Assembly (NCBI RefSeq): GCF_018448785.1
Contig: NZ_JAHCLU010000012.1
Coordinates: 124,001 to 188,000 of the forward strand
Reading direction: 5' to 3'
Source: Halomonas jincaotanensis
GTDB lineage: Bacteria > Pseudomonadota > Gammaproteobacteria > Pseudomonadales > Halomonadaceae
Length of the DNA stretch: 64,000 nt
In this document: positions 1-13,029 of the stretch, piece after piece
How the letters are laid out: every line of letters begins with the position of its first letter
How positions within the stretch are numbered: the stretch's first letter is position 1
Notes under the pieces: model-generated
The model's input: the letters and a program-made list of their open reading frames with translations, nothing else
What the model was told of the DNA's origin: nothing
Databases searched by the model: none
Position numbers and translations under genes: made by a program

Positions 1-427
1 TGTTGAGCTTCCCTTTTTTACAGTGAGGCTGGTATTGACTGCGCCCATTTTCTGACTTTGGCCGACTTGATGATTTATACAGTGGACGAGGCGGTGATAA
101 TTCTTGAAATCGCGCGTCTTATCAACGATAAATAATATTCATTAATCGCCAAAATGGCGGCAAGATCGACCCGGTATTAAACTTTAGTCTCGATTTCGTT
201 CCTCTTTCTTGCGGCATGGGTCCGTACAGACTAGCTTGTACTTTGTATGATGTATGACATGTTGTGGTTTGCTACGACACCATCGACATCTACGTACGCT
301 GACGGTTCGAAAGTCTTTTATCCGATAGCTACAAGTACTGCAAGTTGTCTTCGCCGATTAGTAGCTAGAATAATCTGTGTGCCAAGTCATTTTTAGCTTG
401 GTGTGTGAAAAAATAGGAGTAGGCATA
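1..427. other. Non-coding upstream region of the tct operon
   Basis: No convincing gene is seen in these 427 bases. The stretch is richer in A and T than the coding DNA that follows and ends in a Shine-Dalgarno-like AGGAGTAGG just before the tctC ATG at 428. It contains two head-to-tail TGTATGA units at 244-257, described separately as a possible regulator site. A weaker related string (TTATACAG) lies near 76-82. No clear -35/-10 pair was assigned. Confidence 0.5.
244..260. promoter_or_regulatory. Candidate GntR operator upstream of tctC (TGTATGA tandem)
   Basis: Two adjacent TGTATGA units occur at 244-250 and 251-257. The ten bases TGTATGACAT at 251-260 are identical to bases 6907-6916 inside the palindrome at the start of the GntR gene. 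TGTATGATGT at 244-253 also equals the first ten bases of the reverse complement of that palindrome. The same word at the two promoters of one catabolic island suggests a common site for the local GntR protein. This is inference; binding is untested. Confidence 0.45.
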
Positions 428-1405
428 ATGTACAAGAAACCCATTCTGACGCTAGCTGGTGTTATCGCATTATCCACGATGGCCGGGGCAGTGCAGGCCG
501 ATTATCCTGAGCGCGACATTCGAGTGATTGTCCCTTGGGGTGCGGGTGGTGGTACCGATGGCATCGTGCGCAAACTGACAAGCATTGCCGAAGATAGCCT
601 CGATGTTTCCATGTATGTGGAAAATATCGAGGGGGGCGTTAGTGCCACCGGTATTGGCCAGGTCATGAGCTCTCGTCCAGATGGCTATACCATTGGCGCG
701 CTTACCTATGACAGCATCGTAACCGTACCTTGGCAAGGGATGTTGCCGAGCTACAAGATGGACAGGCTGAAACTGATTGCACGAGTGACGAGCGAGCCCG
801 ACGCTATCGTGGTGGATGCCGATTCCGATTATGAAACGATTCATGATCTGATCGAGGCGGCCAAGGCAGATCCGGGTGAGGTTCGCGTTGCCATCCAGAA
901 TCTGGGCGGGCGAATCCACCTGGCGATTCTGCAGTTGCAGGAGCTGACCGATACGGAATTCAGGATCGTCTCTTATCCAGGCGGTGCAGCCCCACAGAAG
1001 GAGGCCATCCTGTCCGACGAGGTCGATGTCGCTCTGACCAGTCTGGGCGATTTTTCCAATCTTCTGGAAGATGGCACCGTGCGGGGTCTCGTCGAGTTCT
1101 CGGATACCCAGAACCCCACTTATCCCGAGGTGCCCACCACGGTGGATGAGGGGATCGATCTGCAGATTGGCAGCTTCATCGTCTTCGCGGCACCGGCGGA
1201 TACCCCGGACGTGGCCATCGAGGTGCTGGAAAACGCTTACCAGACGGCGTACGACAGCGATGAGTTTCAGGAGTGGGTGGCCAATGTCGGGGTAACACCC
1301 AACTGGCTGGGGACCGATGAGGTGACTCCCTGGGCCGAGGAAACGGCCGAGTCGCTGTTCGATGAAATGGATGCGCTGGTCGAAGCCGGCATCATGTCCA
1401 AGTAA
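428..1405 (+). CDS. tctC: TTT transporter substrate-binding protein (TctC/Bug family)
   Basis: Periplasmic solute receptor of a tripartite tricarboxylate transporter. It captures a carboxylate and delivers it to the TctA/TctB membrane pair encoded next. The 325-residue product has a signal peptide of about 24 residues (lysines at 3-4, hydrophobic core, cleavage after AVQA). The mature part starts with the family pattern YPERDIRVIVPWGAGGGTD and is strongly acidic, as expected for a periplasmic protein of a halophile. The ATG at 428 is chosen over the upstream 377 start because it gives a clean signal peptide and follows AGGAGTAGG. A strong hairpin separates it from tctB. The substrate cannot be read from the sequence; this family takes citrate, other dicarboxylates, aromatic acids and sugar acids. 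Confidence 0.9.
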   Translation: MYKKPILTLAGVIALSTMAGAVQADYPERDIRVIVPWGAGGGTDGIVRKLTSIAEDSLDVSMYVENIEGGVSATGIGQVMSSRPDGYTIGALTYDSIVTVPWQGMLPSYKMDRLKLIARVTSEPDAIVVDADSDYETIHDLIEAAKADPGEVRVAIQNLGGRIHLAILQLQELTDTEFRIVSYPGGAAPQKEAILSDEVDVALTSLGDFSNLLEDGTVRGLVEFSDTQNPTYPEVPTTVDEGIDLQIGSFIVFAAPADTPDVAIEVLENAYQTAYDSDEFQEWVANVGVTPNWLGTDEVTPWAEETAESLFDEMDALVEAGIMSK

Positions 1406-1440
1406 TCGACAGCATAAGACAGCATAAAGAGTATAACCAA

Positions 1441-1465
1441 CGTGGCACCGGCGTCCGGTGCCACG
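1441..1465 (+). other. Intercistronic hairpin between tctC and tctB
   Basis: A perfect inverted repeat: CGTGGCACCGG at 1441-1451 pairs with CCGGTGCCACG at 1455-1465 around a CGT loop. No T-run follows, so it is not a typical intrinsic terminator. In transporter operons such hairpins often protect the upstream message so that the binding protein is made in excess over the membrane parts; that role is inferred here. Confidence 0.7.
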
Positions 1466-1493
1466 AGGTCTTCCTACAAAGGGTTCTGAGTCA

Positions 1494-1964
1494 ATGAACA
1501 ACGTCGAACGATTCAGAAAGTCGGCGGTGCTGTTCCCAGTCTTCCTGCTAATCTTGACCACGATCTACCTGGCAGAAGCATTAAGCATACGCTCGCAGTT
1601 TGGCGGTGACACCATTGTGGGACCGCGTTTCATGCCCATCCTCATGGCGATCATCATGTATGTGGCGCTTATCGTCGTGCTGGTGGGTGAGTTGCGTCGA
1701 GACGAGGAGTCGGCATCCAGTGGCTCCTTCCTCAGGCCGTTGCTGGTAGTTGTGGCGACGGGCATTTATATCGCGCTATTCCGTCCCTTGGGTTATGTGC
1801 CTGCCACCTTGGGTTTCGTGATAGCCCTGTTTCTTATCTTTGACTTCGAAAGGCGACGCCCCGCTTTCTTCGCATTCTATGTGATTGCCGTGACAGCTCT
1901 CTTTTACGGCTTGTTTGCCGGTGTTTTTGGGGTGCGGCTGCCCCCTGTGTTAGGAGGATTCTGA
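1494..1964 (+). CDS. tctB: TTT transporter small membrane subunit (TctB)
   Basis: Small integral-membrane subunit of the tripartite tricarboxylate transporter, 156 residues, with about four hydrophobic segments (near residues 12-30, 45-65, 85-105 and 120-150). The start at 1494 (MNNVERF) is preferred to the longer frame at 1458, whose extra codons run through the tctC-tctB hairpin region. Its stop overlaps the tctA start by one base (TGATG at 1962-1966), which implies translational coupling and fits the obligate TctA-TctB pairing. TctB proteins diverge quickly, so identification rests on size, hydrophobicity and position between tctC and tctA. Confidence 0.85.
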   Translation: MNNVERFRKSAVLFPVFLLILTTIYLAEALSIRSQFGGDTIVGPRFMPILMAIIMYVALIVVLVGELRRDEESASSGSFLRPLLVVVATGIYIALFRPLGYVPATLGFVIALFLIFDFERRRPAFFAFYVIAVTALFYGLFAGVFGVRLPPVLGGF

Positions 1965-3481
1965 TGGAGACGTTTATCAGTTTCCTGGGCGGTTTTGGTG
2001 CGTTGCTGAGTTGGGAAGTGCTTGGTTTCATGATTGCCGGTTTCTTGATCGGCACGTTTTTCGGTGCGATGCCCGGTCTTACCTCCGTGCTGGCCATTGC
2101 ACTGCTACTGCCCATTACCTACACGATCGACGTGGTCCCGGCGCTGGTCATGTGCGCCTCCATCTTCATGGCAGGGATGTACTCGGGGAGCATAACGGCC
2201 ACGACGATCAATATCCCCGGCGCGCCGTCCTCGATGATGACCGCGGTGGAAGGCAATGCCTTGATGCTCAAGGGGCATGGCGCCAACGCGCTGGGACATG
2301 CGGCGCTGGGCTCGATGATCGGCGGCTCGATCGGCGCGATCCTGCTCATGGCGTTCATGCCGCTCGCGGCTGAGCTTGCGCTGCTGATCCGCACCCCGGG
2401 GAAGTTCTCGCTAGTCCTCTTCGCACTGGTGGTCATCATCATCGTCGACAAGGGGGCCATCGCCAAGGGCATCGTCGCGACCTCGCTTGGCATCATGCTG
2501 GCCACCGTAGGGATCGATGTGCTCCAGCCGATTCCGCGCTTCGAGTTCGGAACCGAACTGCTGGTCGAGGGTATCGGTTTGATGCCGGTGGTGATCGGTG
2601 CGTTTGCGGTGAGCGAGCTGCTGGTCCAGGCCCAGAACTGGAACCTCTCACTTGAAGGAACCCTTGAGCGGGCGAAGGCCCTCAGGATTCGTCGGCGTGA
2701 TTTCATCCCGCCCTGGTCGGAGATCCGTCAGATCGGGTTCTTTACCTACATCAAGAGCGCGATCATGGGCTATAGCATTGGCATTCTGCCCGGCGCGGGT
2801 GGCTCGATGGCCGCCTTCGTCGCCTATGCCGATGCCAAGCGCAGCTCAAAGCAACCCGAAGAATATGGCTATGGCAGTCGTGAAGGGATTGCCGCTGCTG
2901 AATCGGCGAACAACTCCATGTGCGGCGGTGCCTTCGTGCCCATGCTGATGTTCGGGATTCCGGGGGATCCGACCACGGCCATCGTGCTGGGCGTGTTGGT
3001 CATCAATGGCTTGCAGCCTGGGCCGCGTTTGCTCGAACAGCAGGCTGACCTTATCGCGCCCATGTTTGCTTCCTTGTTCGTGAGTGCCCTGATCCTTATC
3101 CCGCTGACGCTGTTCCTGTTCGGGCCGTATTTCATCAAGATCGTCTCGATTCCCCGCGGCCTTCTCTACAGCTCCATCGCGGTGGTGGCGCTCGTCGGAA
3201 GCTACGTGGCGACCTATTCGATTTTCCAGATGTTCCTGGCGCTGATGTTCGGCGTGCTGGCCTTCTTCCTGCGCAAGCATAACTACTCGGTGGTGGCCAT
3301 GCTGTTGGGCTTCATCCTGGGTCCGGACCTGGAGCAGTATCTGCGACGATCCTTGTCATTCAACGACGGCAATCCGATCGTCTTCCTGACGAATCTTGAC
3401 AGCCTGGCATTTCTAATATTGACCGTAGTATTCGCCTATTTAATCCTTCGCAAGAAGCCAAAGCTCGACGCCATACCCTAG
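1964..3481 (+). CDS. tctA: TTT transporter large membrane subunit (TctA)
   Basis: Main permease of the tripartite tricarboxylate transporter, 505 residues with about 10-12 membrane segments. It carries both family hallmarks: an N-terminal FFGAMPGLT stretch with glycine and proline in the membrane (about residues 26-40) and a second copy, MFGIPGDPTTAIVLG, near residue 330. It probably drives secondary uptake of a carboxylate handed over by TctC. It is coupled to tctB by a one-base overlap and is followed by a large hairpin and then the ThDP enzyme gene in the same direction, so transporter and enzyme are likely co-transcribed. Confidence 0.93.
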   Translation: METFISFLGGFGALLSWEVLGFMIAGFLIGTFFGAMPGLTSVLAIALLLPITYTIDVVPALVMCASIFMAGMYSGSITATTINIPGAPSSMMTAVEGNALMLKGHGANALGHAALGSMIGGSIGAILLMAFMPLAAELALLIRTPGKFSLVLFALVVIIIVDKGAIAKGIVATSLGIMLATVGIDVLQPIPRFEFGTELLVEGIGLMPVVIGAFAVSELLVQAQNWNLSLEGTLERAKALRIRRRDFIPPWSEIRQIGFFTYIKSAIMGYSIGILPGAGGSMAAFVAYADAKRSSKQPEEYGYGSREGIAAAESANNSMCGGAFVPMLMFGIPGDPTTAIVLGVLVINGLQPGPRLLEQQADLIAPMFASLFVSALILIPLTLFLFGPYFIKIVSIPRGLLYSSIAVVALVGSYVATYSIFQMFLALMFGVLAFFLRKHNYSVVAMLLGFILGPDLEQYLRRSLSFNDGNPIVFLTNLDSLAFLILTVVFAYLILRKKPKLDAIP

Positions 3482-3511
3482 TCGTGACAACAGCCATGGC
3501 CTCACTTACTC

Positions 3512-3546
3512 GACTCGCGTCATCAGCCTCGCTGGTGGCGCGAGTC
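3512..3546 (+). other. Hairpin between tctA and the ThDP enzyme gene
   Basis: GACTCGCG at 3512-3519 pairs with CGCGAGTC at 3539-3546, and inside it CATCAG at 3521-3526 pairs with CTGGTG at 3532-3537 (one G-T pair). This makes a stem of about 15 pairs with a CCTCG loop. No T-run follows. It ends about 20 bases before the next ATG and may act as a processing or stability element in the polycistronic message. Confidence 0.55.
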
Positions 3547-3566
3547 TCTGCCATCAGGAACCCGAC

Positions 3567-5240
3567 ATGACCACAACGCCACGACCCTCCCCACGCACCG
3601 GGGGGAAAGTGCTGGTTGACCAGCTCATCATCCACGGTGCCGATAGCGGCTATTGCGTGCCCGGGGAAAGCTACTTGGAAGTGCTCGACGCCCTCTATGA
3701 TCAGCGCGAGCATTTCACGCTCTACAATGCGCGCCATGAAGCCGGCGCGGCGAACATGACTGAGGCCTATGGCAAGCTGACGGGCCGCCCCGGTATCTGC
3801 CTGGTGACGCGTGGCCCGGGGGCCTGCCACGCCGCCATCGGCGTGCATATCGCTCAGCAGGATTCGACGCCGATGATTCTGCTGGTTGGCCAGGTCGACC
3901 GCGGCTCCCTGGACCGGGAAGCGTTTCAGGAGATCGACTACCGGGTCATGTTCGCCGGTGTGGCCAAGTGGGTCGCCCAGATCGATGACGCTCGCCGGAT
4001 TCCGGAATACATGTCGCGTGCCTTTCGAGTCGCCACCTCGGGCCGTCCGGGGCCGGTGGTGCTGGCCCTGCCCGAAGACATGTTGACCGATGTCGTCGAG
4101 GTCGATGATGCGCCACCCTATACGCCATCTCGGCCAAGCGTTGCCCTTGAAGAGATCGAGCGAATCGGTGCCCTGGTGTCGCGTGCCGAGCGCCCGATGA
4201 TGCTGGTGGGCGGCTCGGGCTGGACGGATGAGGCCTGTGCGCAGATCAGGACATTTGCCGAGGCCAACGGGATCCCGGTGGCCTGTTCCTTCCGGCGCCA
4301 GGATATCCTCGACAACGCCTCGGATTGCTATGTGGGCGACTTCGGTACCGCCGTGGTGCCGTCGCTGATCAAGCGTCTGGCCGAGGCCGACCTGCTGTTG
4401 GTCGTCGGCGCCCGGCTCGGCGAGATGACCACCAAGACCTACACCACGCTCACTTCCCCGAATCCCACCCAGACGCTGATCCACGCGCATGTCGACCCGG
4501 ACGAGATAGGCCGTGTCTTCAGCCCAGCGCTGGGTGTCGTTTCGGCGCCCGACAAGCTCGCCGCCGCGTTGGCGCCATGCGATTGGGCGCAGCGCAGCCG
4601 TTGGAGCGAGTGGTGCCAGACGCTTCGCGACGAGTACCTTGCCGATATCCAGCCACCGGCGCACGACTATCCGCTCAACATGGGCGCGGCGATGCACGAG
4701 TTGCGCGACAGCCTGCCGAAGGATTGTATCGTGACCCTGGACGCCGGAAATCATACCGGCTGGGCGCAGCGGTTCCTGGCTTATCAACGTCCCGGTCGGA
4801 TCATCGGTTCGACCTGCGGCTCGATGGGCTATTCGGTGCCCGCCTCCGTGGCGGCGTCGTTGCGCGAGCCCGACAAGTGCGTGCTGGCATTTGTCGGTGA
4901 TGGCGGCTTCATGATGAGCGGCGTCGAGATTGCCACTGCCGTGCAACATGGCGGCCGGCCCATCGTGTTGCTGTTCAATAACGGCACGTACGGCACGATC
5001 CGAATGCATCAGGAGCGCGACCATCCGGGACGCGTCTCGGGGACCGACCTTGTGAACCCCGATTTCGGCCAGATGGCCGCCGGGCTCGGCGCGCATTTCG
5101 AGCGCGTCAGCGATACGGGCAGCGTCAAGCCGGCCCTGGAGCGAGCCATAGCCTCGGGCCGTCCCGCCGTTATCGAACTGATGACCGATCCGGAGCGTAT
5201 TTCGACGCGCACCACCGTTTCGGCACTGCGTTCCGCCTGA
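3567..5240 (+). CDS. Thiamine-diphosphate-dependent enzyme, acetolactate synthase-like
   Basis: A 557-residue member of the ThDP enzyme superfamily with the usual three domains (PYR, central, PP). The catalytic glutamate is in NARHEAGAANMTEAYG (E58). The cofactor motif is GDGGF at 444-448 through NN at 471-472, followed by GTYGTIR. Known relatives decarboxylate or ligate 2-oxo acids (acetolactate synthase, oxalyl-CoA and benzoylformate decarboxylases). It is probably not the biosynthetic acetolactate synthase: no small regulatory subunit is nearby and it follows a tct transporter. I infer that it acts on a 2-oxo acid derived from the imported substrate. SD-like AGGAAC precedes the ATG. Confidence 0.85.
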   Translation: MTTTPRPSPRTGGKVLVDQLIIHGADSGYCVPGESYLEVLDALYDQREHFTLYNARHEAGAANMTEAYGKLTGRPGICLVTRGPGACHAAIGVHIAQQDSTPMILLVGQVDRGSLDREAFQEIDYRVMFAGVAKWVAQIDDARRIPEYMSRAFRVATSGRPGPVVLALPEDMLTDVVEVDDAPPYTPSRPSVALEEIERIGALVSRAERPMMLVGGSGWTDEACAQIRTFAEANGIPVACSFRRQDILDNASDCYVGDFGTAVVPSLIKRLAEADLLLVVGARLGEMTTKTYTTLTSPNPTQTLIHAHVDPDEIGRVFSPALGVVSAPDKLAAALAPCDWAQRSRWSEWCQTLRDEYLADIQPPAHDYPLNMGAAMHELRDSLPKDCIVTLDAGNHTGWAQRFLAYQRPGRIIGSTCGSMGYSVPASVAASLREPDKCVLAFVGDGGFMMSGVEIATAVQHGGRPIVLLFNNGTYGTIRMHQERDHPGRVSGTDLVNPDFGQMAAGLGAHFERVSDTGSVKPALERAIASGRPAVIELMTDPERISTRTTVSALRSA

Positions 5241-5334
5241 CCGGTCCCTAGGTCAAGGGGTGGGGCGGCGCTATTCGGTCAAACAGTGGCTAGGGCCCGA
5301 GTGTTTCTCGTGAGACGCCGGCCTCCGACGAGCC

Positions 5335-5652
5335 TCAATCCTTGAAGAAGGGCGCGGGGACGACGATCTTGTTCTCCTGGCTGACCAGGTAACCCGCCTC
5401 GGCGCTTTTCTTGAGATAGGCGGCCCAGTCGGGGTCTTTCTGCATGGCGGCACGTCGCTGGCTGCGGTCAGCGGCGTCCTGGAACACCCAGATATGCACG
5501 TACGAGTTCACGTTTCCGGTCTCGACCGGGCCGTAAAGCAGTGGTTCGCCCAGGTGGCGTCTCTGGATCGGCCAGCCATGTTCCTCGTAGAGTGCCATTT
5601 GCTTTTTCAAGGTGCCGGGGATGCAGGTATAGGTGCGGTGGTCATAAAGCAT
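5335..5652 (-). CDS. NIPSNAP family protein
   Basis: A 105-residue protein with the ferredoxin-like, dimeric NIPSNAP fold signature: LYDHRTYTCIPG at the start, a central YVHIWVF strand and a C-terminal basic helix before VVPAPFF. The start at 5652 is chosen because AAGGAG lies eight bases upstream and the conserved MLYDHRTY begins there; an open frame to 5787 adds unrelated sequence. It lies downstream of the D-2-hydroxyacid dehydrogenase on the same strand (119-base gap) and converges with the ThDP gene. Small NIPSNAP proteins occur in catabolic clusters, but their biochemical role is not settled. No function is assigned beyond family. Confidence 0.82.
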   Translation of the reverse strand: MLYDHRTYTCIPGTLKKQMALYEEHGWPIQRRHLGEPLLYGPVETGNVNSYVHIWVFQDAADRSQRRAAMQKDPDWAAYLKKSAEAGYLVSQENKIVVPAPFFKD

Positions 5653-5771
5653 GTCGATGCTCCTTGTGCGGAATCGGCCAACCGGCAGTGAGGCGGCTGG
5701 CAGTTCGGTGATGCTGTGGTGGCGCATGCAATGACGAGCCCCCATCCAGCGTGCGTAACAGGGCCAGAGGC

Positions 5772-6728
5772 CTAGCGGACAAGACAAGCGGGATCAATGG
5801 GCTGCCCTTGATCGAAGGCCGTAATGTTGGCCGCCCAATGTGACACCATGCGTACCAGATTGTCTCGCGTCAGCCCGCTGACATGGGGCAGGGTCACGAC
5901 GCTGTCGAGAGCGAGCAGGGGATTGTCGGCAGCGACGGGTTCTTTTTCGAACACATCGAGTCCCGCACCTGCCAGATGGGCGCTTTCCAGCGCGGCGACG
6001 AGCGCCGTTTCATCGACCAGTGCGCCGCGCGACGTATTGATCAGCACCGAGCCCGGTTTCATCAGGGCCAGGCAATCCGGCCCGAGCAAATGGTGGGTAT
6101 CTGCCGTCAGGGGAAGATGCAGGCTGATGACATCGCACTGCGCCAGCAAGGCGTCCATGTCGGCGAAGCGCAGGGAGGAACCGGCGACGGGGCCGGAGGG
6201 CTTGGTGTAGACGATCTCGCAGCCGAACCCCTGAAGCCGCGCGGCGACTTGCTGGCCGATGGCGCCAAGCCCGATCAGCCCGACGGTGGCTGATGACAGA
6301 TCGAAGGTCCGCTGCCAGAGATCCTTCATTTCCCACTGGCCCGTACGCATGGACGCATGGACCTGTGGTATGCGGCGCAGGGTGGCCAGCATCAGCCCGA
6401 TCGTCATGTCCGCTACCGTCGGGGCATTCACGCCGGGGCTGCGCGCGACGGTGATGCCTCTGGCACGGGCCTCGACCAACGGAATCCCGTCGGTTCCCGT
6501 GCCCCACTGATGGATGAGCCGGACAGCCCTGGCCTGCTCCAGCACGCTGGCGGGGAAGCGCAGGCCACGCGTGACGATATAGGGGGCGTCAACGACGATA
6601 TCTGCAAAATCATCCGGGTGACCGGATCTAGGAAACCGCATGTCGAGCCCGGGGCAGATCTTGCGCACGAACGACTGCATGTCGGCGGTCATGGGCTCAA
6701 GCACGGCGACCGGTCCGGTGCGTGTCAT
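5772..6728 (-). CDS. D-isomer-specific 2-hydroxyacid dehydrogenase
   Basis: NAD(P)-dependent interconversion of a 2-oxo acid and a D-2-hydroxy acid. The 318-residue protein has a Rossmann motif GLGAIG at 153-158 and the catalytic triad Arg234 (NTSRGALVDE), Glu263 (DVFEKEP) and His282 (LPHVSG). The length fits the family. Within the island it could feed a 2-oxo acid to the ThDP enzyme or remove its product; the direction is not known. It is transcribed away from the GntR gene, and the 230 bases between them hold the CTGTATGA palindrome. Confidence 0.88.
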   Translation of the reverse strand: MTRTGPVAVLEPMTADMQSFVRKICPGLDMRFPRSGHPDDFADIVVDAPYIVTRGLRFPASVLEQARAVRLIHQWGTGTDGIPLVEARARGITVARSPGVNAPTVADMTIGLMLATLRRIPQVHASMRTGQWEMKDLWQRTFDLSSATVGLIGLGAIGQQVAARLQGFGCEIVYTKPSGPVAGSSLRFADMDALLAQCDVISLHLPLTADTHHLLGPDCLALMKPGSVLINTSRGALVDETALVAALESAHLAGAGLDVFEKEPVAADNPLLALDSVVTLPHVSGLTRDNLVRMVSHWAANITAFDQGQPIDPACLVR

Positions 6729-6905
6729 GAGTCGGCCTCGCTCGGATTTCGCTTCATCTCGACCTCTTTGGCTGTCGGATGTCTGTTTCGTTGAAGTAGA
6801 GAAATGTCATTGGACATGGCCGTTACGGGTAATGCCGGTTAACGTGGGGCATTCTTACCCTGAAGACGGGCTTTTATACGGTAAAATCTAGCTGATCATG
6901 CTATG

Positions 6906-6923
6906 CTGTATGACATCATACAG
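6906..6923. promoter_or_regulatory. Palindromic operator CTGTATGA-CA-TCATACAG
   Basis: A perfect 8-base inverted repeat with a two-base centre lies between the divergent 2-hydroxyacid dehydrogenase and GntR genes, 37 bases before the GntR start chosen here. It overlaps the alternative ATG at 6903, which argues against that start. Palindromes of this size are usual for FadR-type GntR dimers. The shared ten-base word upstream of tctC suggests autoregulation plus control of transport. Confidence 0.6.
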
Positions 6924-6959
6924 CGATACAACACAAACATCATGATTAAGGATGTTGAC

Positions 6960-7697
6960 ATGGTGACGGATCCTGCCCCAATCAATGTGCGAAGGGCGCC
7001 TCAACAGGGGAGTCTATCCGTTCATGTGGCGGATCAACTTGAGTCTCTGATCACAAAGGGTAAGGTGGCGGTGGGTAATAAACTGCCGACCGAAAATAGC
7101 CTTTGCGAGTCCTTCGGGGTCAGTCGTACGGTGATTCGCGAAGCGATTACCCACCTGAAGTCGTTGGGTCTGGTCGAGACGCGTCGGGGTGTCGGCACGA
7201 CGGTGCTGCGGGCCACCACCGTGGAAGCCAAGCCCGCCGAGCGCATCAACCCAACGACGGTCGAGGACATATTGCATTTGCTCGAGTTGAGGTTGACGCT
7301 CGAGCCTACCGCTGCCGAGTTGGCGGCATTGCGTCATGACGACGAGGACCGTCGAGAGCTTGTTGAACGCCATGAGGCCTTCGGCAAGGCTCACCTGGAA
7401 AAAACCCAGGCGCGCAGTGAGGACTATCACTTTCACTTTGCCATCGCCCAGGCGACCAAGAATCCTTTCTTCAAGTCTTTCTACGAGCAGTGGAGCCAAA
7501 GCGTGATTCCACGGGCCAAGCTACTCAGCATCGAAATCGATACCACTTCCTCCAAGCGTTACTTGGAGCGTGTTCACGAAGAGCATACCTACATCCTCGA
7601 GGCGATTCTGTCGCGGGATGCCGAGGCCGCTCGTGAAACCATGTTTCAGCATCTCAACCGTGCGCGGAACACGTATGCCAAGTATCGCGATCAATGA
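6960..7697 (+). CDS. GntR family regulator, FadR/FCD subfamily
   Basis: A 245-residue transcription factor. The N-terminal winged helix-turn-helix (about residues 18-90) includes KLPTENSLCESFGVSRTVIREAITHLKSLGLVE in family order. The C-terminal FCD ligand-binding domain (about 100-235) has the histidine-bearing helices HFHFAIAQATKN and VHEEHTYI that bind a metal or carboxylate in relatives. The start at 6960 is used because 6903 would lie inside the palindrome, although 6942 is also possible. It probably senses the imported acid or a metabolite and controls the surrounding genes. Confidence 0.88.
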   Translation: MVTDPAPINVRRAPQQGSLSVHVADQLESLITKGKVAVGNKLPTENSLCESFGVSRTVIREAITHLKSLGLVETRRGVGTTVLRATTVEAKPAERINPTTVEDILHLLELRLTLEPTAAELAALRHDDEDRRELVERHEAFGKAHLEKTQARSEDYHFHFAIAQATKNPFFKSFYEQWSQSVIPRAKLLSIEIDTTSSKRYLERVHEEHTYILEAILSRDAEAARETMFQHLNRARNTYAKYRDQ

Positions 7698-7788
7698 CCG
7701 GGGCGTATAAAACGTGGCTGGCGCATCATAATCATTGCCATAGCGCTCAGCCAACCCCCTTCTTTTTCTTAGTGACTCAGGAGAGCTC

Positions 7789-9366
7789 ATGACTATCAGT
7801 GGAAACATGTTGATCGGCCAGCAAGCCGTCAGCGGCCAGCAAGCCGAGATCCACGCCGTCAACCCGGCCACCGGCGAGACCCTGTCCCCGGCCTATGCCG
7901 GCGGCAGCAAGGCAGAGGTCGAAAAGGCCTGCGCGCTGGCCGAGGCGGCATTTGACGCCTATCGCGAGACCTCGCTTGAAGACCGTGCGACCTTCCTTGA
8001 GTCCATCGCCAGCGAAATCGAGGCGATCGGCGATCAGCTGACCGAGCGCGGCGTAGCCGAGACCGGCCTGCCCGAGGCTCGCCTCCAGGGCGAGCGTGGC
8101 CGTACCTGCGGCCAGCTGCGGCTGTTCGCTTCCGTCGTGCGTGCCGGCGAATGGCTCGACGTGCGCGTCGATCCGGCGCTGCCCGAGCGTGAGCCGATGC
8201 CGCGCGTCGACCTACGCCAGCGCCATATTGCCCTGGGCCCGGTGGCGGTGTTCGGTGCCAGCAATTTCCCGCTGGCCTTCAGTGTCGCTGGTGGCGATAC
8301 CGCCTCGGCGCTTGCCGCCGGCTGCCCGGTGGTGGTCAAGGGCCATTCCGCCCATCCCGGCACCTCGGAGCTGGTCGGTCGCGCCATCCAGCGAGCCGTC
8401 AAGGCGTGCGGGTTGCCCGAGGGCACCTTCTCGCTGCTGTTCGGCTCGGGCCGCGAGATCGGCCAGGCGCTGGTCGCTGACCCGCGCATCCAGGCGGTGG
8501 GCTTCACCGGTTCGCGTAGCGGCGGCACGGCGCTGATGGCCACCGCCCAGGCGCGCCCGCAGCCGATTCCGGTCTACGCTGAGATGAGCTCGATCAACCC
8601 GGTGTTTCTCCTCCCCGAGGCGCTCAAGGCACGCGGTGACAAGATCGCCGAGGGCTTCGCCGCCTCGCTCAGCATGGGTGCCGGGCAGTTCTGCACCAAC
8701 CCCGGGCTGGTGATCGCGATCGAGGGCCCCGAACTCGACGCCTTCGTCGCCGCCGCCGGTGAAGCGGTCAAGGGCAGCGCCGCCCAGACCATGCTCACCC
8801 CGGGCATCCATGACGCCTACGAGCAGGGCGTCAACCGGCTGGCCGGCCACGCCAAGGTCACGGAAGCCGCCCGCGGCCAGGCCGGCGAGACCGCCCACCC
8901 CGCCCAGGCCGGGCTATTCGTCACGCAGGCCGAGGCTTTCCTCAACGATCCTGCCCTGCAGGAAGAAGTGTTCGGCTCGACCTCGCTGGTGATCGCCTGT
9001 GCCGACGTGCAGGAAGTGCGCCGCGTCGCCGCCGAGCTTGAAGGCCAGCTGACCATCACCCTGCAGATGGACGACGGTGATCTTGATACTGCCCGGCAGC
9101 TGCTGCCGACGCTGGAGCGCAAGGCCGGCCGGATACTCGCCAACGGCTGGCCCACCGGCGTGGAAGTCTGCCACGCCATGGTCCACGGCGGGCCCTACCC
9201 GGCGACCTCGGATAGCCGCACCACCTCGGTGGGCAGCGCGGCGATCTTCCGCTTCCTGCGCCCGGTGTGCTACCAGGCACTGCCCACGGGCCTGCTGCCC
9301 GAGGCGCTCAAGGATGCCAACCCGCTGGGCGTGAGCCGCCTGGTCGATGGCAAGCGTGAAGTCTAA
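7789..9366 (+). CDS. Aldehyde dehydrogenase, alpha-ketoglutarate semialdehyde (2,5-dioxovalerate) type
   Basis: Oxidises an aldehyde, most likely 2,5-dioxopentanoate, to the acid (2-oxoglutarate) with NAD(P). The 525-residue protein belongs to the longer bacterial KGSADH class: an N-terminal GNMLIGQQ segment, catalytic Cys302 in [10 protein letters not shown] and general base Glu265 in [10 protein letters not shown] strong AGGAGAGCTC leads into the ATG, and an intrinsic terminator follows. It sits 91 bases after the GntR gene on the same strand. In known pathways this enzyme ends the oxidative breakdown of hexarates, pentoses and hydroxyproline, but no dehydratase for those routes is in the window, so its feeding pathway is open. 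Confidence 0.87.
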
Positions 9367-9466: not shown

Positions 9467-10414
9467 CTAGATCAACTGGGCAAGCTTGAGCAGGAAGATG
9501 CCAAGGCTCACTGTTGCCATGCTACCGAAGGTACTGATGACGATAATGTTGGCGGCCAGCTGTTCATTGCCGCCGACGGCTTTCGCCATGACGTAACTGA
9601 TGGCAGCGCCAGGGCTGGCGAGGAACAGAAACAGGATGCCGAGCTCGGCGCCACGGAAGCCCAGCGGCAGGGCCATGACGACTCCAAGTGCCGGCATGCC
9701 GATAATCTTCCACAGGCTCGCCTCCAGCGCCTGACCGCGTGTCTGGTTGACCGCTTTGAGGGTTAAGCTGCCGCCGATACAGATCAGTGCCAAGGGCAAT
9801 GACAGCGAGCCGAAATATTCCCCCGACGTCATCAGCCAGGTAGGCAGCGTAATGCCGGAATAAGCCACCGGGATCGCTGCCAGGATGCTGATGATGAGCG
9901 GATTGACGGCTATCTCGCGGAAGATTGAGGTGAGGTTGGAGCTTGCGGTGGGACTGTAAAGCGCAAGAATGATCGCCGACAGCACCAGATTCAGCACGAT
10001 GACGCCGCCGGCCATGATGCCACCCAGCGACAGGCCGTAATCGCCGTACATGCTGGCCGCAAGCGCCAAGCCGACAATCCCGCAATTGCCGCGAAAGGCG
10101 CCCTGAACAAAAACGCCGCGATCGAGGCGGGGACTGCGCCAGATGGCCCATACCCAAATCAGCAAAAAGCACAGTGTCGTGACTGCCAGGTAATAAATGA
10201 TCAGGCCGGGTTGCAGGGCGCTTGCCAGGTCTGCCTTGATAATGCTCATAAAAAGCAGCGTCGGCATCGTGGCCTTGAACACGAGACTGGACGCCGTGTT
10301 GATGAAAGGCATGTCGATCCAGCCGATGCGTTTGAGCAGGATGCCGATCATGACCATGGAGAACACCGGCAGAGTCACTTCCAGTGTGCCGAAAAAGACG
10401 TCAATCGGGCCCAT
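9467..10414 (-). CDS. AEC family transporter (auxin efflux carrier-like)
   Basis: A 315-residue integral membrane protein with about ten hydrophobic segments in two halves, matching AEC/malonate-permease-like carriers. Related bacterial proteins move malonate, malate or other small carboxylates; the substrate here is unknown. The ATG at 10414 is preferred because it overlaps the stop of a tiny upstream ORF (TGATG), giving translational coupling; a GTG at 10429 is the alternative. It converges with the aldehyde dehydrogenase gene and may serve the same carboxylate island, but nothing in the sequence proves this. Confidence 0.85.
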   Translation of the reverse strand: MGPIDVFFGTLEVTLPVFSMVMIGILLKRIGWIDMPFINTASSLVFKATMPTLLFMSIIKADLASALQPGLIIYYLAVTTLCFLLIWVWAIWRSPRLDRGVFVQGAFRGNCGIVGLALAASMYGDYGLSLGGIMAGGVIVLNLVLSAIILALYSPTASSNLTSIFREIAVNPLIISILAAIPVAYSGITLPTWLMTSGEYFGSLSLPLALICIGGSLTLKAVNQTRGQALEASLWKIIGMPALGVVMALPLGFRGAELGILFLFLASPGAAISYVMAKAVGGNEQLAANIIVISTFGSMATVSLGIFLLKLAQLI

Positions 10415-10509
10415 CAGCGAGCCAGCCACAAGCCGACCACCAAGGCCGCGAGCGTCGTGGCGAAGAACAGGGTATTACGCAGGCGGGTGTCGCGGGGCGG
10501 CTTGGTCAC
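10414..10509 (-). CDS. Small single-span membrane protein coupled to the AEC transporter
   Basis: An ORF of 31 codons starting with GTG. The first half is polar and basic (VTKPPRDTRLRN) and the second is one hydrophobic span ending in WLAR, so the N terminus should face the cytoplasm. AGGAGA precedes the GTG at good spacing, and the stop overlaps the transporter ATG by one base. It could be a real accessory peptide or a leader that sets translation of the transporter. No homologue is claimed; support is the ribosome site, topology and overlap. Confidence 0.5.
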   Translation of the reverse strand: MTKPPRDTRLRNTLFFATTLAALVVGLWLAR

Positions 10510-10516
10510 AGGTTCT

Positions 10517-10770
10517 CCTGGCGCTGTCTTGTCGACAGGTGCTAAAGCGAGTGTTTGCTTATCATGGGAAAAGCGGGCCACGATGGTAAACCCGTTAGTT
10601 TGCTACCGCTAGTCAGGTGACCACCATGCACGAGCACACGACTCAGCGAGACACGCTGGTTTTCGCCCATGCCAATGAGCTTTCTGACATTGGCTATCGA
10701 AGCGTCCAGGCCCCATTGTCGAAGCGACTTACCTCGTATTCACCGGATCGCCTGGGGCATCACGGCGGGA
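10517..10770 (+). repeat. Direct repeat copy 1 (about 255 bp), flanking the hydroxyacid dehydrogenase
   Basis: This stretch matches 12108-12361 at a constant offset of 1591 bases. The first ~165 bases differ at only a few positions; similarity then falls until it fades near 10770. The unit holds the leader region and first codons of the alpha/beta hydrolase gene whose intact copy starts at 12217. Confidence 0.85.
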
Positions 10771-10775
10771 AAGCA
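10626..10775 (+). pseudogene. Truncated 5' copy of the alpha/beta hydrolase gene
   Basis: Codons from ATG 10626 give MHEHTTQRDTLVFAHAN, identical to the start of the intact hydrolase at 12217, then a diverging GYRS...APLS...DRLGHH stretch. After about 50 codons the similarity ends, and the frame continues only as a shadow of the hydroxyacid dehydrogenase. The catalytic serine region is missing, so this is a dead fragment. The higher divergence of its 3' part suggests relaxed selection since the duplication. Confidence 0.75.
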
Positions 10776-10893
10776 GTCCCAGTGGACATTCACGCGCAAA
10801 CCTCATGCATGGACCGAATAATCGTCGAGTGTGACGGTGATCCGGCATCGTCGGATTTCAATGGCATCATCTATTATCGGGAGCACGCACGCG

Positions 10894-12180
10894 ATGACAG
10901 CTCAAGGATCATCACCGACTGCATCGGCGCAACGCCCGTCACCGAAAGCCTCCTGGCTAGAGGCCAGGCGGCTGGCTCGTATCTTCTGTCTCGACGACTT
11001 CGAGCCGGCGGCCAGGCGACACCTGCCGCGGCCGATCTTCGGCTATGTCGCCGGGGCGGCAGAGACCAATGCGTCATACCGCGACAACCGTGCCGTGTTC
11101 GACGAATACGGCTTCAGGCAACGGGTGCTGCGCGATGTCAGTGGGCGCGAGTCATCGCTCGACCTGCTGGGGGGGCGCTATTCGGCCCCCTTCGGCATTG
11201 CTCCGATGGGCATTTCCTCCTTGACCGGCTATCGGGGGGATCTGGCCCAGGCACGGGCGGCCGAGCGGGCCGGCATCCCGATGATCCTCAGTGGCTCCTC
11301 GCTGATCCGGCTCGAGGAGGTGGTCGAGGCGGCACCGAGTACCTGGTTCCAGGCCTATCTGCCCGCCGATTCGTCACAAATCGCTGCGCTGGTCGATCGT
11401 GTGGCGCAGGCGGGTGTGGAAACCCTGGTGGTGACCGTGGATTCCGCCGTCGTCCCCAACCGCGAGAACAACCTGCGCAATGGCTTTCGGACGCCACTAC
11501 GTCCGGACCTCCGACTGCTCTGGGATGGCGTGACGCATCCGGCCTGGAGCCTGGGAACCTTCCTGCGCACTATGCTTCACCACGGCATGCCTCATTTCGA
11601 GAACAACACCGCCGAGCGCGGCGCCGCCATCCTGTCGCGGCATGCCACTCGCGACTTCTCGGGTCGGGAACACCTGGACTGGGAGGAATGGCGGTGCATC
11701 CGTCGCCAATGGCAGGGCAACCTGGTGATCAAGGGCCTGCTGCACCCGGAAGATGTGGCCACCGCGCGTCAGCATGGTGCCGATGGGGTCATCCTCTCCA
11801 ATCATGGCGGACGCCAGCTCGACGGTGCCGTCTCGCCGATGCGAGCGCTACCTGAGGCCTTGGACGTCGCCGGGGAGATGGCGGTGATGATCGACAGCGG
11901 CTTCAGACGCGGTACCGATGTGATCAAGGCACTGGCCCTGGGGGCTCGCTGTGCCTTCATCGGACGCCCCTTCAACTATGCCGCCGCCATCGGTGGGGAA
12001 GCCGGCGTGGATCACGCCATCGAACTGCTGATGTCGGAAATCCGCGCCGACATGGGCATGCTGGGGATCAACCGGCTGGCGGAACTCGACCCCGCGATGC
12101 TGGTAGACCTGGCGCTGTCTTGTCGACAGGTGCCAAAGCGAGCGTTTGCTTATCATGGGAAAAGCGGGCCACGATGCTAA
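10894..12180 (+). CDS. FMN-dependent alpha-hydroxyacid dehydrogenase/oxidase (LldD/glycolate oxidase family)
   Basis: Oxidises an L-2-hydroxy acid to the 2-oxo acid using FMN. The (beta/alpha)8 barrel is complete: PRPIFGYVAGAAET near the N terminus, FGIAPMGISSL, WFQAYLP, the catalytic Lys in LVIKGLLHPED, the active-site SNHGGRQLDGA histidine and arginine, and DSGFRRGTDVIKALALGA for phosphate binding. The start is uncertain (10831, 10861 and 10894 are in frame); 10894 follows GGGAG. The last 23 residues (from LALSCRQV to the end) are encoded by the second direct repeat, so the native stop seems to have been lost and the protein ends in a borrowed tail. The enzyme could act with the nearby carboxylate genes. 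Confidence 0.82.
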   Translation: MTAQGSSPTASAQRPSPKASWLEARRLARIFCLDDFEPAARRHLPRPIFGYVAGAAETNASYRDNRAVFDEYGFRQRVLRDVSGRESSLDLLGGRYSAPFGIAPMGISSLTGYRGDLAQARAAERAGIPMILSGSSLIRLEEVVEAAPSTWFQAYLPADSSQIAALVDRVAQAGVETLVVTVDSAVVPNRENNLRNGFRTPLRPDLRLLWDGVTHPAWSLGTFLRTMLHHGMPHFENNTAERGAAILSRHATRDFSGREHLDWEEWRCIRRQWQGNLVIKGLLHPEDVATARQHGADGVILSNHGGRQLDGAVSPMRALPEALDVAGEMAVMIDSGFRRGTDVIKALALGARCAFIGRPFNYAAAIGGEAGVDHAIELLMSEIRADMGMLGINRLAELDPAMLVDLALSCRQVPKRAFAYHGKSGPRC

Positions 12181-12361
12181 ACCCGTTAGTTTGCGACCGC
12201 TAGTCAGGATACCATCATGCACGAGCACACGACTCAGCGAGACACTCTGGTTTTCGCCCATGCCAACGGGTTTCCTGGCATCAGCTATCGAAGCTTCCTG
12301 GCACCCTTGGCGGAGCAGTTTACCCTGTACCCGATGGATCGTATGGGGCATCACCCGGATT
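12108..12361 (+). repeat. Direct repeat copy 2 (about 255 bp), start of the intact hydrolase gene
   Basis: Partner of 10517-10770. It supplies the 3' end and stop codon of the hydroxyacid dehydrogenase reading frame as well as the leader and first ~48 codons of the intact alpha/beta hydrolase. A small CTGTC/GACAG inverted repeat lies near its left edge. Confidence 0.85.
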
Positions 12362-13029
12362 TCCCGGTCGGGCATAACTGGTTCTCTTTGCGTGATGAGT
12401 TGCTGGAACATCTGACCCATATCGAGACGCCAGTGATCGGCGTCGGGCATTCCATGGGCGGCGTGCTGATGGCTATGGCGGCCGAGCAGGCTCCTGAGCG
12501 GTTTCGTTGCGTGATAATGCTGGATCCACCGCTGATGCTGGGTCCCGATGCCTGGGCCGTTAAGCTCGCCAAGTTGATGGGATTTGTCGACCGCGTCACG
12601 CCGGCGGGAAAGAGCCAGGGCCGGCGCATCATCTGGCCGGACAGTGACGCCATGGCCCACTACCTGCGTCGTCGGGGACTTTTTCGACGCTTTACTGAGT
12701 CGGCACTGCAGGATTATATCGAGGGTGGCACCCGGACCCTGGAAGATGGGCGAGTGACATTGATCTACGATCCCCAGATCGAGGTGGATATCTTTCGTCA
12801 TCTGCCCGACCACCTGGGCACCCTGCCGCGGCGCCTGAGAGTGCCCGCAGGGGTGCTGGCTGGCGCGCAGTCCGACCTTCTGACCCCGCGACGTCGCAAG
12901 CGTCTCGCCCGCCATGGCATCAAGGTCCGCGAAGTGACCGGAAGCCATATGTTTCCGATGGAGAGCCCCGACGAAGCCCGTCAGGCATTGCTGGCAATGC
13001 TGCATACCCTGCTGGAAGATCGATCATGA
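12217..13029 (+). CDS. Alpha/beta hydrolase
   Basis: A 270-residue alpha/beta-hydrolase-fold enzyme. Nucleophile Ser79 sits in VGHSMGGV; the likely acid is Asp220 (AGAQSDLLTP) and the base His244 (GSHMFPME). An early HANGFPG segment may form the oxyanion hole. The next hydrolase gene overlaps its end by four bases (ATGA), so the two are translated together. The substrate is unknown; carboxyl-ester or epoxide-like activities are possible. Its 5' end is duplicated upstream. Confidence 0.87.
   Translation: MHEHTTQRDTLVFAHANGFPGISYRSFLAPLAEQFTLYPMDRMGHHPDFPVGHNWFSLRDELLEHLTHIETPVIGVGHSMGGVLMAMAAEQAPERFRCVIMLDPPLMLGPDAWAVKLAKLMGFVDRVTPAGKSQGRRIIWPDSDAMAHYLRRRGLFRRFTESALQDYIEGGTRTLEDGRVTLIYDPQIEVDIFRHLPDHLGTLPRRLRVPAGVLAGAQSDLLTPRRRKRLARHGIKVREVTGSHMFPMESPDEARQALLAMLHTLLEDRS

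Follow-up and report, generated by a model that had tools for sequence, protein, structure and literature searches.

Sugar-derived acids that stem from plants and algae are broken down by islands of catabolic genes. Two described systems come closest to the island reported here. The oxidative hexuronate pathway comprises Udh, Gli, Gci, KdgD and KGSADH (PMC6353982), and in two Halomonas strains, HL-48 and HL-93, galactarate/glucarate genes cluster with those of a TctABC transporter and of the GntR-family regulator GguR, which in one of the strains also controls an operon containing Udh, Gli, Gci and UxuPQM (PMC5507952); both accounts are used here as given in the portions of the papers available to us. 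We analysed a stretch of 64,000 nucleotides (the window) from the 4.13 Mb genome of Halomonas jincaotanensis, positions 124001-188000 of contig NZ_JAHCLU010000012.1. At its left end, the genes of a tripartite tricarboxylate transporter (TTT; TctCBA), a thiamine diphosphate (ThDP)-dependent enzyme and a NIPSNAP-domain protein form a unit which, together with a dehydrogenase of the Ldh_2 or D-2-hydroxyacid type, is probably an accessory decarboxylase branch of a GguR-type hexuronate/hexarate island.

A known core pathway with additional genes

A first-pass annotation of the window had described a catabolic island but had called it uncharacterised and its gene set no known pathway. The catabolic character holds, with pathway genes found both in the window and in L085, the 20 kb immediately to its left, which were fetched and annotated (L-numbers denote the sequence stretches compared, G-numbers the 201 Halomonadaceae genomes). 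The labels 'uncharacterised' and 'no known pathway' are not supported, since the bulk of the island corresponds to the oxidative hexuronate/hexarate pathway under GguR, already reconstructed, in the text available to us, for Halomonas (PMC5507952). What made the gene set look unfamiliar is that the window takes in only part of the island: the whole spans about 24.7 kb across the window and L085, its left end lies about 15.4 kb left of window base 1, the window holds only the right-hand 9.4 kb or so, and the boundaries given earlier were an artefact of the window edge. From left to right, L085 carries an AEC permease gene, kdgD1, a second tctC-tctB-tctA set, garD, a gudD-like gene and kdgD2, followed by a TRAP transporter, Gci, Gli, Udh and an Ldh_2 dehydrogenase gene that ends 152 bases before the window. 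The AEC permease at the left edge (L085:3412-4359) is a paralog, 59% identical, of the one at the right edge (Table 1). All eight genes named at first pass lie where they had been placed, the three transporter subunits side by side, and the Pfam domain expected of each scores above its gathering threshold.

Table 1. Features of the island; positions without a prefix are those of the window
Feature	Position	Strand	Evidence or setting
Gci cycloisomerase	L085:15907-17043		matches solved protein 4ggb, 633 bits
Gli lactone isomerase	L085:17040-17909		matches solved protein 4mup, 241 bits
Udh uronate dehydrogenase	L085:17988-18788		matches 3ay3 and two solved proteins titled uronate dehydrogenase, 6mfh and 3rft
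Exact copy of GguR-type operator, TTGTATGATGTATGACA	243..259	+	in front of tctC
TctC solute-binding protein (TctC1)	428..1405	+	Pfam TctC, 115 bits
TctB membrane subunit	1494..1964	+	Pfam TctB, 63 bits
TctA membrane subunit	1964..3481	+	Pfam TctA, 420 bits
ThDP-dependent enzyme, PRK08199 subfamily	3567..5240	+	NF006052, 770 bits, cut-off 539, passed
NIPSNAP-domain protein	5335..5652	-	Pfam NIPSNAP, 85 bits
D-2-hydroxyacid dehydrogenase	5772..6728	-	Pfam 2-Hacid_dh_C, 202 bits
Palindromic operator variant with the same half-sites, TGTATGACATCATACA	6907..6922		between the divergent D-2-hydroxyacid dehydrogenase and regulator genes
GntR/FCD regulator, taken as GguR	6960..7697	+	Pfam GntR and FCD
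KGSADH-type aldehyde dehydrogenase	7789..9366	+	relatives 3v4c and 1eyy, 537 and 512 bits
AEC-family permease	9467..10429	-	Pfam; right edge of island

The core is assigned by homology. GarD (TIGR03248, 890 bits against a cut-off of 730.85) and both KdgD copies (TIGR03249, 384.5 and 382.4 bits against 373.95) pass their models, and the neighbouring dehydratase is called GudD-like only, because it does not reach the cut-off of the curated glucarate dehydratase model TIGR03247 (692.6 of 828.7). The solved proteins 4ggb and 4mup are those we take to be Gci and Gli. The TRAP binding protein matches 4p1l/4p3l at 510 bits. The aldehyde dehydrogenase of the window, presumably of the KGSADH class, scores 93.7 on the specific KGSADH model NF042993, whose cut-off is 770. 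The two KdgD genes (L085:4680-5597 and 12048-12962) are 97% identical, and an exact operator copy precedes each. By these assignments Udh would oxidise uronates, and Gli and Gci would isomerise and open the product; GarD and the GudD-like enzyme would dehydrate aldarates to 2-keto-3-deoxyhexarate, which KdgD would convert to 2-oxoglutarate semialdehyde and the aldehyde dehydrogenase to 2-oxoglutarate. The end step to 2-oxoglutarate suggested at first pass fits the presence of KdgD and KGSADH-type genes, and hexarates, among its substrate guesses, agree with an island of this kind. The core is already known, because the pathway and the Halomonas regulon have both been described (PMC6353982; PMC5507952).

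The island resembles the regulon of HL-48 and HL-93 in its galactarate/glucarate genes, TctABC transporter and GntR-family regulator, and in Udh, Gli and Gci, which stand there with UxuPQM. It differs in that the available text on those strains describes one TctABC and no ThDP enzyme, NIPSNAP protein, D-2-hydroxyacid dehydrogenase or Ldh_2 dehydrogenase; the words 'thiamine', 'acetolactate', 'decarboxylase' and 'NIPSNAP' have 0 occurrences in the main text, the part of the article searched (PMC5507952). With the pathway of Agrobacterium tumefaciens it shares Udh, Gli, Gci, KdgD and KGSADH, to which it adds GarD and the GudD-like gene; in the available portion of that account, the natural pathway is described without a ThDP step (PMC6353982). 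A literature search by title and abstract returned nothing on NIPSNAP with TTT or on galactarate with ThDP and TTT, and no ThDP enzyme in a hexarate or uronate setting among the matches listed. No assay of a PRK08199 protein turned up, though no search by that name was made. The ThDP enzyme, the small partner protein and the second importer are additions to the known island, and no role there seems to have been assigned to them. An apparently novel island thereby becomes a defined question, namely the role of a conserved, operator-sharing TctCBA-ThDP-NIPSNAP unit in growth on uronates and aldarates. If the reading is true, a ThDP subfamily whose model is silent on function would gain one, a bacterial NIPSNAP protein would be placed in a metabolic context, and the candidate substrates would be narrowed to a few.

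Operator sharing and conservation of the unit

The shared candidate operator proposed at first pass is real at both window sites. Three copies of the exact 17-mer TTGTATGATGTATGACA occur in the whole genome, before kdgD1, kdgD2 and tctC, all of them in the island. At up to 3 mismatches the window holds two matches, a number reached in 0 of 100 shuffles, and 3 mismatches across the genome bring in one further site in the island and three outside it. Only the exact copies carry weight, because the reversed control pattern also matches twice in the genome at up to 3 mismatches. Immediately upstream of the window's genes for the ThDP enzyme and the aldehyde dehydrogenase, no site was seen. The variant TGTATGACATCATACA also adjoins gntR in G177, which seems to be the genome of H. 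korlensis, and lies between the NIPSNAP gene and a kdgD gene in G166, where operator copies have 1 or 2 mismatches; in six genomes, G177 among them, a regulator copy 82-92% identical to ours stands next to the aldehyde dehydrogenase gene. Operons of the island share an operator sequence, and we infer that the GntR regulator, taken as GguR, would be its partner.

The genes are also found together in other genomes, as the co-occurrence check suggested at first pass had asked. The order kdgD-tct2-garD-gudD-tctCBA1-ThDP-NIPSNAP-gntR-aldehyde dehydrogenase is kept in five of five genomes (G108, G144, G200, G088 and G010). The operator 16-mer is exact in these and in G177, and the copy preceding tctC1 is exact in G108 and has 1 mismatch in the other four. 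Just before kdgD, each of the five has an Ldh_2 gene that shares 65-66% identity with the one in G119, and the products of G088 and G200, the two scanned, pass the '3-dehydro-L-gulonate 2-dehydrogenase' model (364.8 and 360.9 of 316). The 40 kb read in each of these genomes showed no Udh or Gci gene. A second operator-led row in the five (L120:11801-13240 onward in G108) contains a GudD paralog of 53% identity, a further Tct set and an Ldh_2 gene just before kdgD.

In six genomes of the same genus (G119, G155, G133, G141, G099 and G175), a tctCBA-NIPSNAP-ThDP locus lies apart from garD. Between its arms stands an operator-like 16-mer with 1 mismatch in the first three genomes, 2 in G141 and G099, and 3 in G175; 20 shuffled 20-kb stretches gave 0 such sites at up to 2 mismatches. 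An Ldh_2 gene lies between tctC and NIPSNAP-ThDP in five of the six, with none seen in G141, and the four scanned, those of G119, G133, G175 and G099, pass the same '3-dehydro-L-gulonate 2-dehydrogenase' model (348-364 of 316). The ThDP enzymes of these separate loci are 46-49% identical to that of the window and fall in another part of the tree, a quick one without bootstrap of which only the shape is used. Further copies of the operator beside a cluster's own gntR have 2 mismatches in G020 and 3 in G122, G040 and G021.

At 65% identity or more, the ThDP enzyme is encoded in 15 of the 201 genomes. KdgD is present in all 15, against 112 of the 186 others (p 7e-4), and GarD in 11, against 49 of 186 (p 4e-4), both values being too favourable because the genomes compared are related. 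Within the 33-row clade of the window's ThDP enzyme, a sugar-acid marker lies within 10 kb at 20 loci, a 2-hydroxyacid dehydrogenase at 15, NIPSNAP at 14 and TctCBA at 13. Outside Halomonadaceae, a marker occurs at 6 of 17 loci of this clade and at 2 of 61 loci of the other clade (p 0.001), or at 4 of 17 and 0 of 61 once the IlvD and DHDPS references are set aside. These two references were taken from L009 and L023 and favour the window's clade. The identity thresholds of the marker test were our choice, the window row was added by hand and its distance checked, G122 counts twice for its two ThDP genes, and several loci are short (L016, L022 and L030 are under 13 kb). Gene calls in high-GC loci are rough; the co-occurrence, operator-locus and clade counts come from tblastn and pattern scans.

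Apart from the relatedness that flatters these p values, several observations weigh against the accessory-branch reading. Most KdgD genomes do without the ThDP gene (112 of 127 at 65% identity, and 99 of 127 when any match at E 1e-100 or better is counted), and it is therefore not required for the core pathway. At 13 of the 33 loci of the window's clade there is no sugar-acid marker. The ThDP gene of G177 has no tctCBA1, NIPSNAP or D-2-hydroxyacid dehydrogenase gene in its 40 kb, the 40 kb read in each genome with conserved order showed no D-2-hydroxyacid dehydrogenase gene either, and the dehydrogenase families differ from locus to locus. G043 and G027 carry tctCBA-NIPSNAP-ThDP with neither a sugar-acid marker nor an operator-like site, and the same scan, allowing 3 mismatches, gave no such site in L005, L007, L008, L012 or G178, so the regulon claim holds for part of the Halomonadaceae only. 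The absence of the ThDP gene from most KdgD genomes, the lack of this importer and of NIPSNAP near that gene in H. korlensis, and the marker-less loci of the clade speak against one fixed pathway.

A proposed decarboxylase branch and its alternatives

The model passed by the ThDP enzyme, NF006052 (PRK08199), bears a name that states no function, 'thiamine pyrophosphate protein'. Among the 25 of 54 matches listed, no acetolactate synthase model is passed (best 321 of 509 for PRK08322 and 307 of 538 for TIGR00118), and the scores on the Xsc and Gcl models are far below their cut-offs. The enzyme thus does not score as the acetolactate synthase that the first-pass annotation had considered as a possibility damaging to its scheme, and we rejected that identity on these scores. 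Its best solved relatives are nevertheless acetolactate synthases; the Glu of an RHE/RQE motif, which we take to be catalytic, and an FQE motif, which we regard as acetolactate-synthase-like, are kept in 22 of 22 aligned rows, the window's included. Among 80 named loci, the closest relative (94% identical) is that of H. korlensis L017. A further PRK08199 gene, 47% identical and with one in-frame TGA stop, lies at G122:C1:45135-46808.

In the proposed branch, TctCBA would import a uronate-related or aldarate-like acid, and a dehydrogenase or dehydratase would make, or the importer would bring, a C6 2-oxo acid; the ThDP enzyme would decarboxylate this to a C5 aldehyde acid, which an aldehyde dehydrogenase would oxidise as the last step. 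The order of import, oxidation, ThDP-dependent decarboxylation and aldehyde oxidation had been put forward at first pass and stays conditional here. We favour decarboxylation of a C6 2-oxo acid since three dehydrogenase families that are unrelated to one another (D-2-hydroxyacid, Ldh_2 and GlcD-like) recur near ThDP genes; because these families vary among loci, no single oxidation step is conserved. The D-2-hydroxyacid dehydrogenase of the window reaches the cut-off of none of the 21 NCBIfam models listed and has relatives near ThDP genes in L005 (64% identical) and L008 (54%), and the Ldh_2 product of the window's own island fails the '3-dehydro-L-gulonate 2-dehydrogenase' model (100.2 of 316).

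As to the imported acid, the best solved relative of TctC1 (155 bits) is 25HK, a TTT-C protein from the alginate locus of Vibrio sp. C42 that binds unsaturated alginate oligosaccharides, according to the portion of the report available (PMC13390454). The likeness is one of search score rather than of residue-level alignment, and because 25HK binds alginate oligosaccharides, a uronate-type ligand for TctC1 is a fair lead.

The predicted model of the NIPSNAP protein (pLDDT 94.5) is nearest in fold to the NIPSNAP structures 5k9f and 2ap6, followed by monooxygenase and LsrG-like folds; some matches are titled unknown function or uncharacterized, and the search gave no function. Of 109 distinct ThDP sequences, 26 have a NIPSNAP gene no more than 1.5 kb away, on the same strand (upstream or downstream) or convergent. 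In L033, L044, L048, L059, L069 and L081 it stands directly beside the ThDP gene without any of the sugar-acid markers used, and because of such loci the two genes seem to be linked on their own.

A fuller version of the accessory branch is possible, but we hold it only tentatively. It would be an undescribed branch in which the ThDP enzyme works with a dedicated NIPSNAP partner, an isomerase or subunit, supplied by a TTT importer of its own and by 2-hydroxyacid dehydrogenases that can replace one another, turning a C6 2-oxo sugar acid into a C5 aldehyde acid; in related clusters a LarA group 22 epimerase would feed it too. These clusters (G122, G040, G020, G021, L006-L008 and L012) combine the ThDP gene with a TAXI-TRAP transporter and a GlcD-like oxidase, and variably add lar genes, galactarate dehydratase, IlvD and HpcH.

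Rather unlikely, in our estimate, is an action of the ThDP enzyme in the core pathway itself, where it would decarboxylate 2-keto-3-deoxyhexarate, or a diastereomer poorly handled by KdgD, to 2,3-dihydroxy-5-oxopentanoate ahead of the aldehyde dehydrogenase. The dehydratases are orthologous across ThDP-bearing hexarate islands whereas the dehydrogenase types vary, G177 has the ThDP gene without tctCBA1, and a pentonate-type IlvD dehydratase at some clade loci could process the dihydroxy acid. However, KdgD, present in every ThDP genome, already uses 2-keto-3-deoxyhexarate, and none of the identified genes of the island obviously processes 2,3-dihydroxyglutarate. Somewhat less likely again is a carboligase or lyase, similar to glyoxylate carboligase or acetolactate synthase, that would act on small aldehydes or 2-oxo acids arising during growth on aldarates. 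The conserved motifs and the solved relatives would suit such an enzyme, but the acetolactate synthase, Xsc and Gcl scores are far below cut-off among the matches listed while that of PRK08199 is far above, and a Pfam scan placed no regulatory subunit among the identified neighbouring genes.

That the ThDP, NIPSNAP and Tct genes are hitch-hikers in the island, serving an unrelated substrate, we consider improbable. PRK08199 relatives do occur in clusters of a different kind, with hydantoinase-like and aminotransferase genes (L037, L065, L070 and G179), and G043 and G027 carry the unit with no sugar-acid marker nearby; the operator is nevertheless common to the unit even where it lies apart from the core genes, and gene order is kept in five genomes. 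An ordinary biosynthetic acetolactate synthase beside a citrate importer, suggested by fold and superfamily only, is largely refuted by the model scores and also disagrees with the operator and gene context, which makes it by far the least credible of these explanations.

Neighbouring genes and related clusters

To the right of the island, a gene for an FMN-dependent LldD-like dehydrogenase (10894-12180) lies between two 247-base direct repeats (window 10517-12354) that are 87% identical with a spacing of 1591. Both repeats match one place in H. korlensis L017, with no such dehydrogenase gene between, and the arrangement reads as a duplication with an inserted gene. A mandelate-type pathway of FMN dehydrogenase, ThDP enzyme and aldehyde dehydrogenase was considered and rejected, as the FMN gene sits between the repeats and has no counterpart at the corresponding position of L017.

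Lar nickel-pincer genes lie in a cluster with ThDP, GarD and L-arabinonate dehydratase genes in L136-L137 (G020), and similarly in L138-L139, L134-L135 and L130. Three proteins of G020 exceed the cut-off of a model: IlvD that of L-arabinonate dehydratase (1090.7 of 882), GarD its own (866.9 of 730.85) and LarA that of nickel-pincer isomerase group 22 (477.6 of 400); the HpcH protein does not reach its model cut-off. One LarA group with a uronic-acid context has been suggested, in the available part of the report, to act on uronic or aldaric acids (PMC7583248), and that group seems to differ from group 22.

PRK08199 relatives in L037, L065, L070 and L151 (G179) lie near hydantoinase A/B-like, aminotransferase, FAD oxidase and short-chain dehydrogenase genes, named by eye from sequence, some with an aldehyde dehydrogenase gene as well. 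These relatives are perhaps the same type of enzyme acting on a 2-oxo acid derived from an amino acid.

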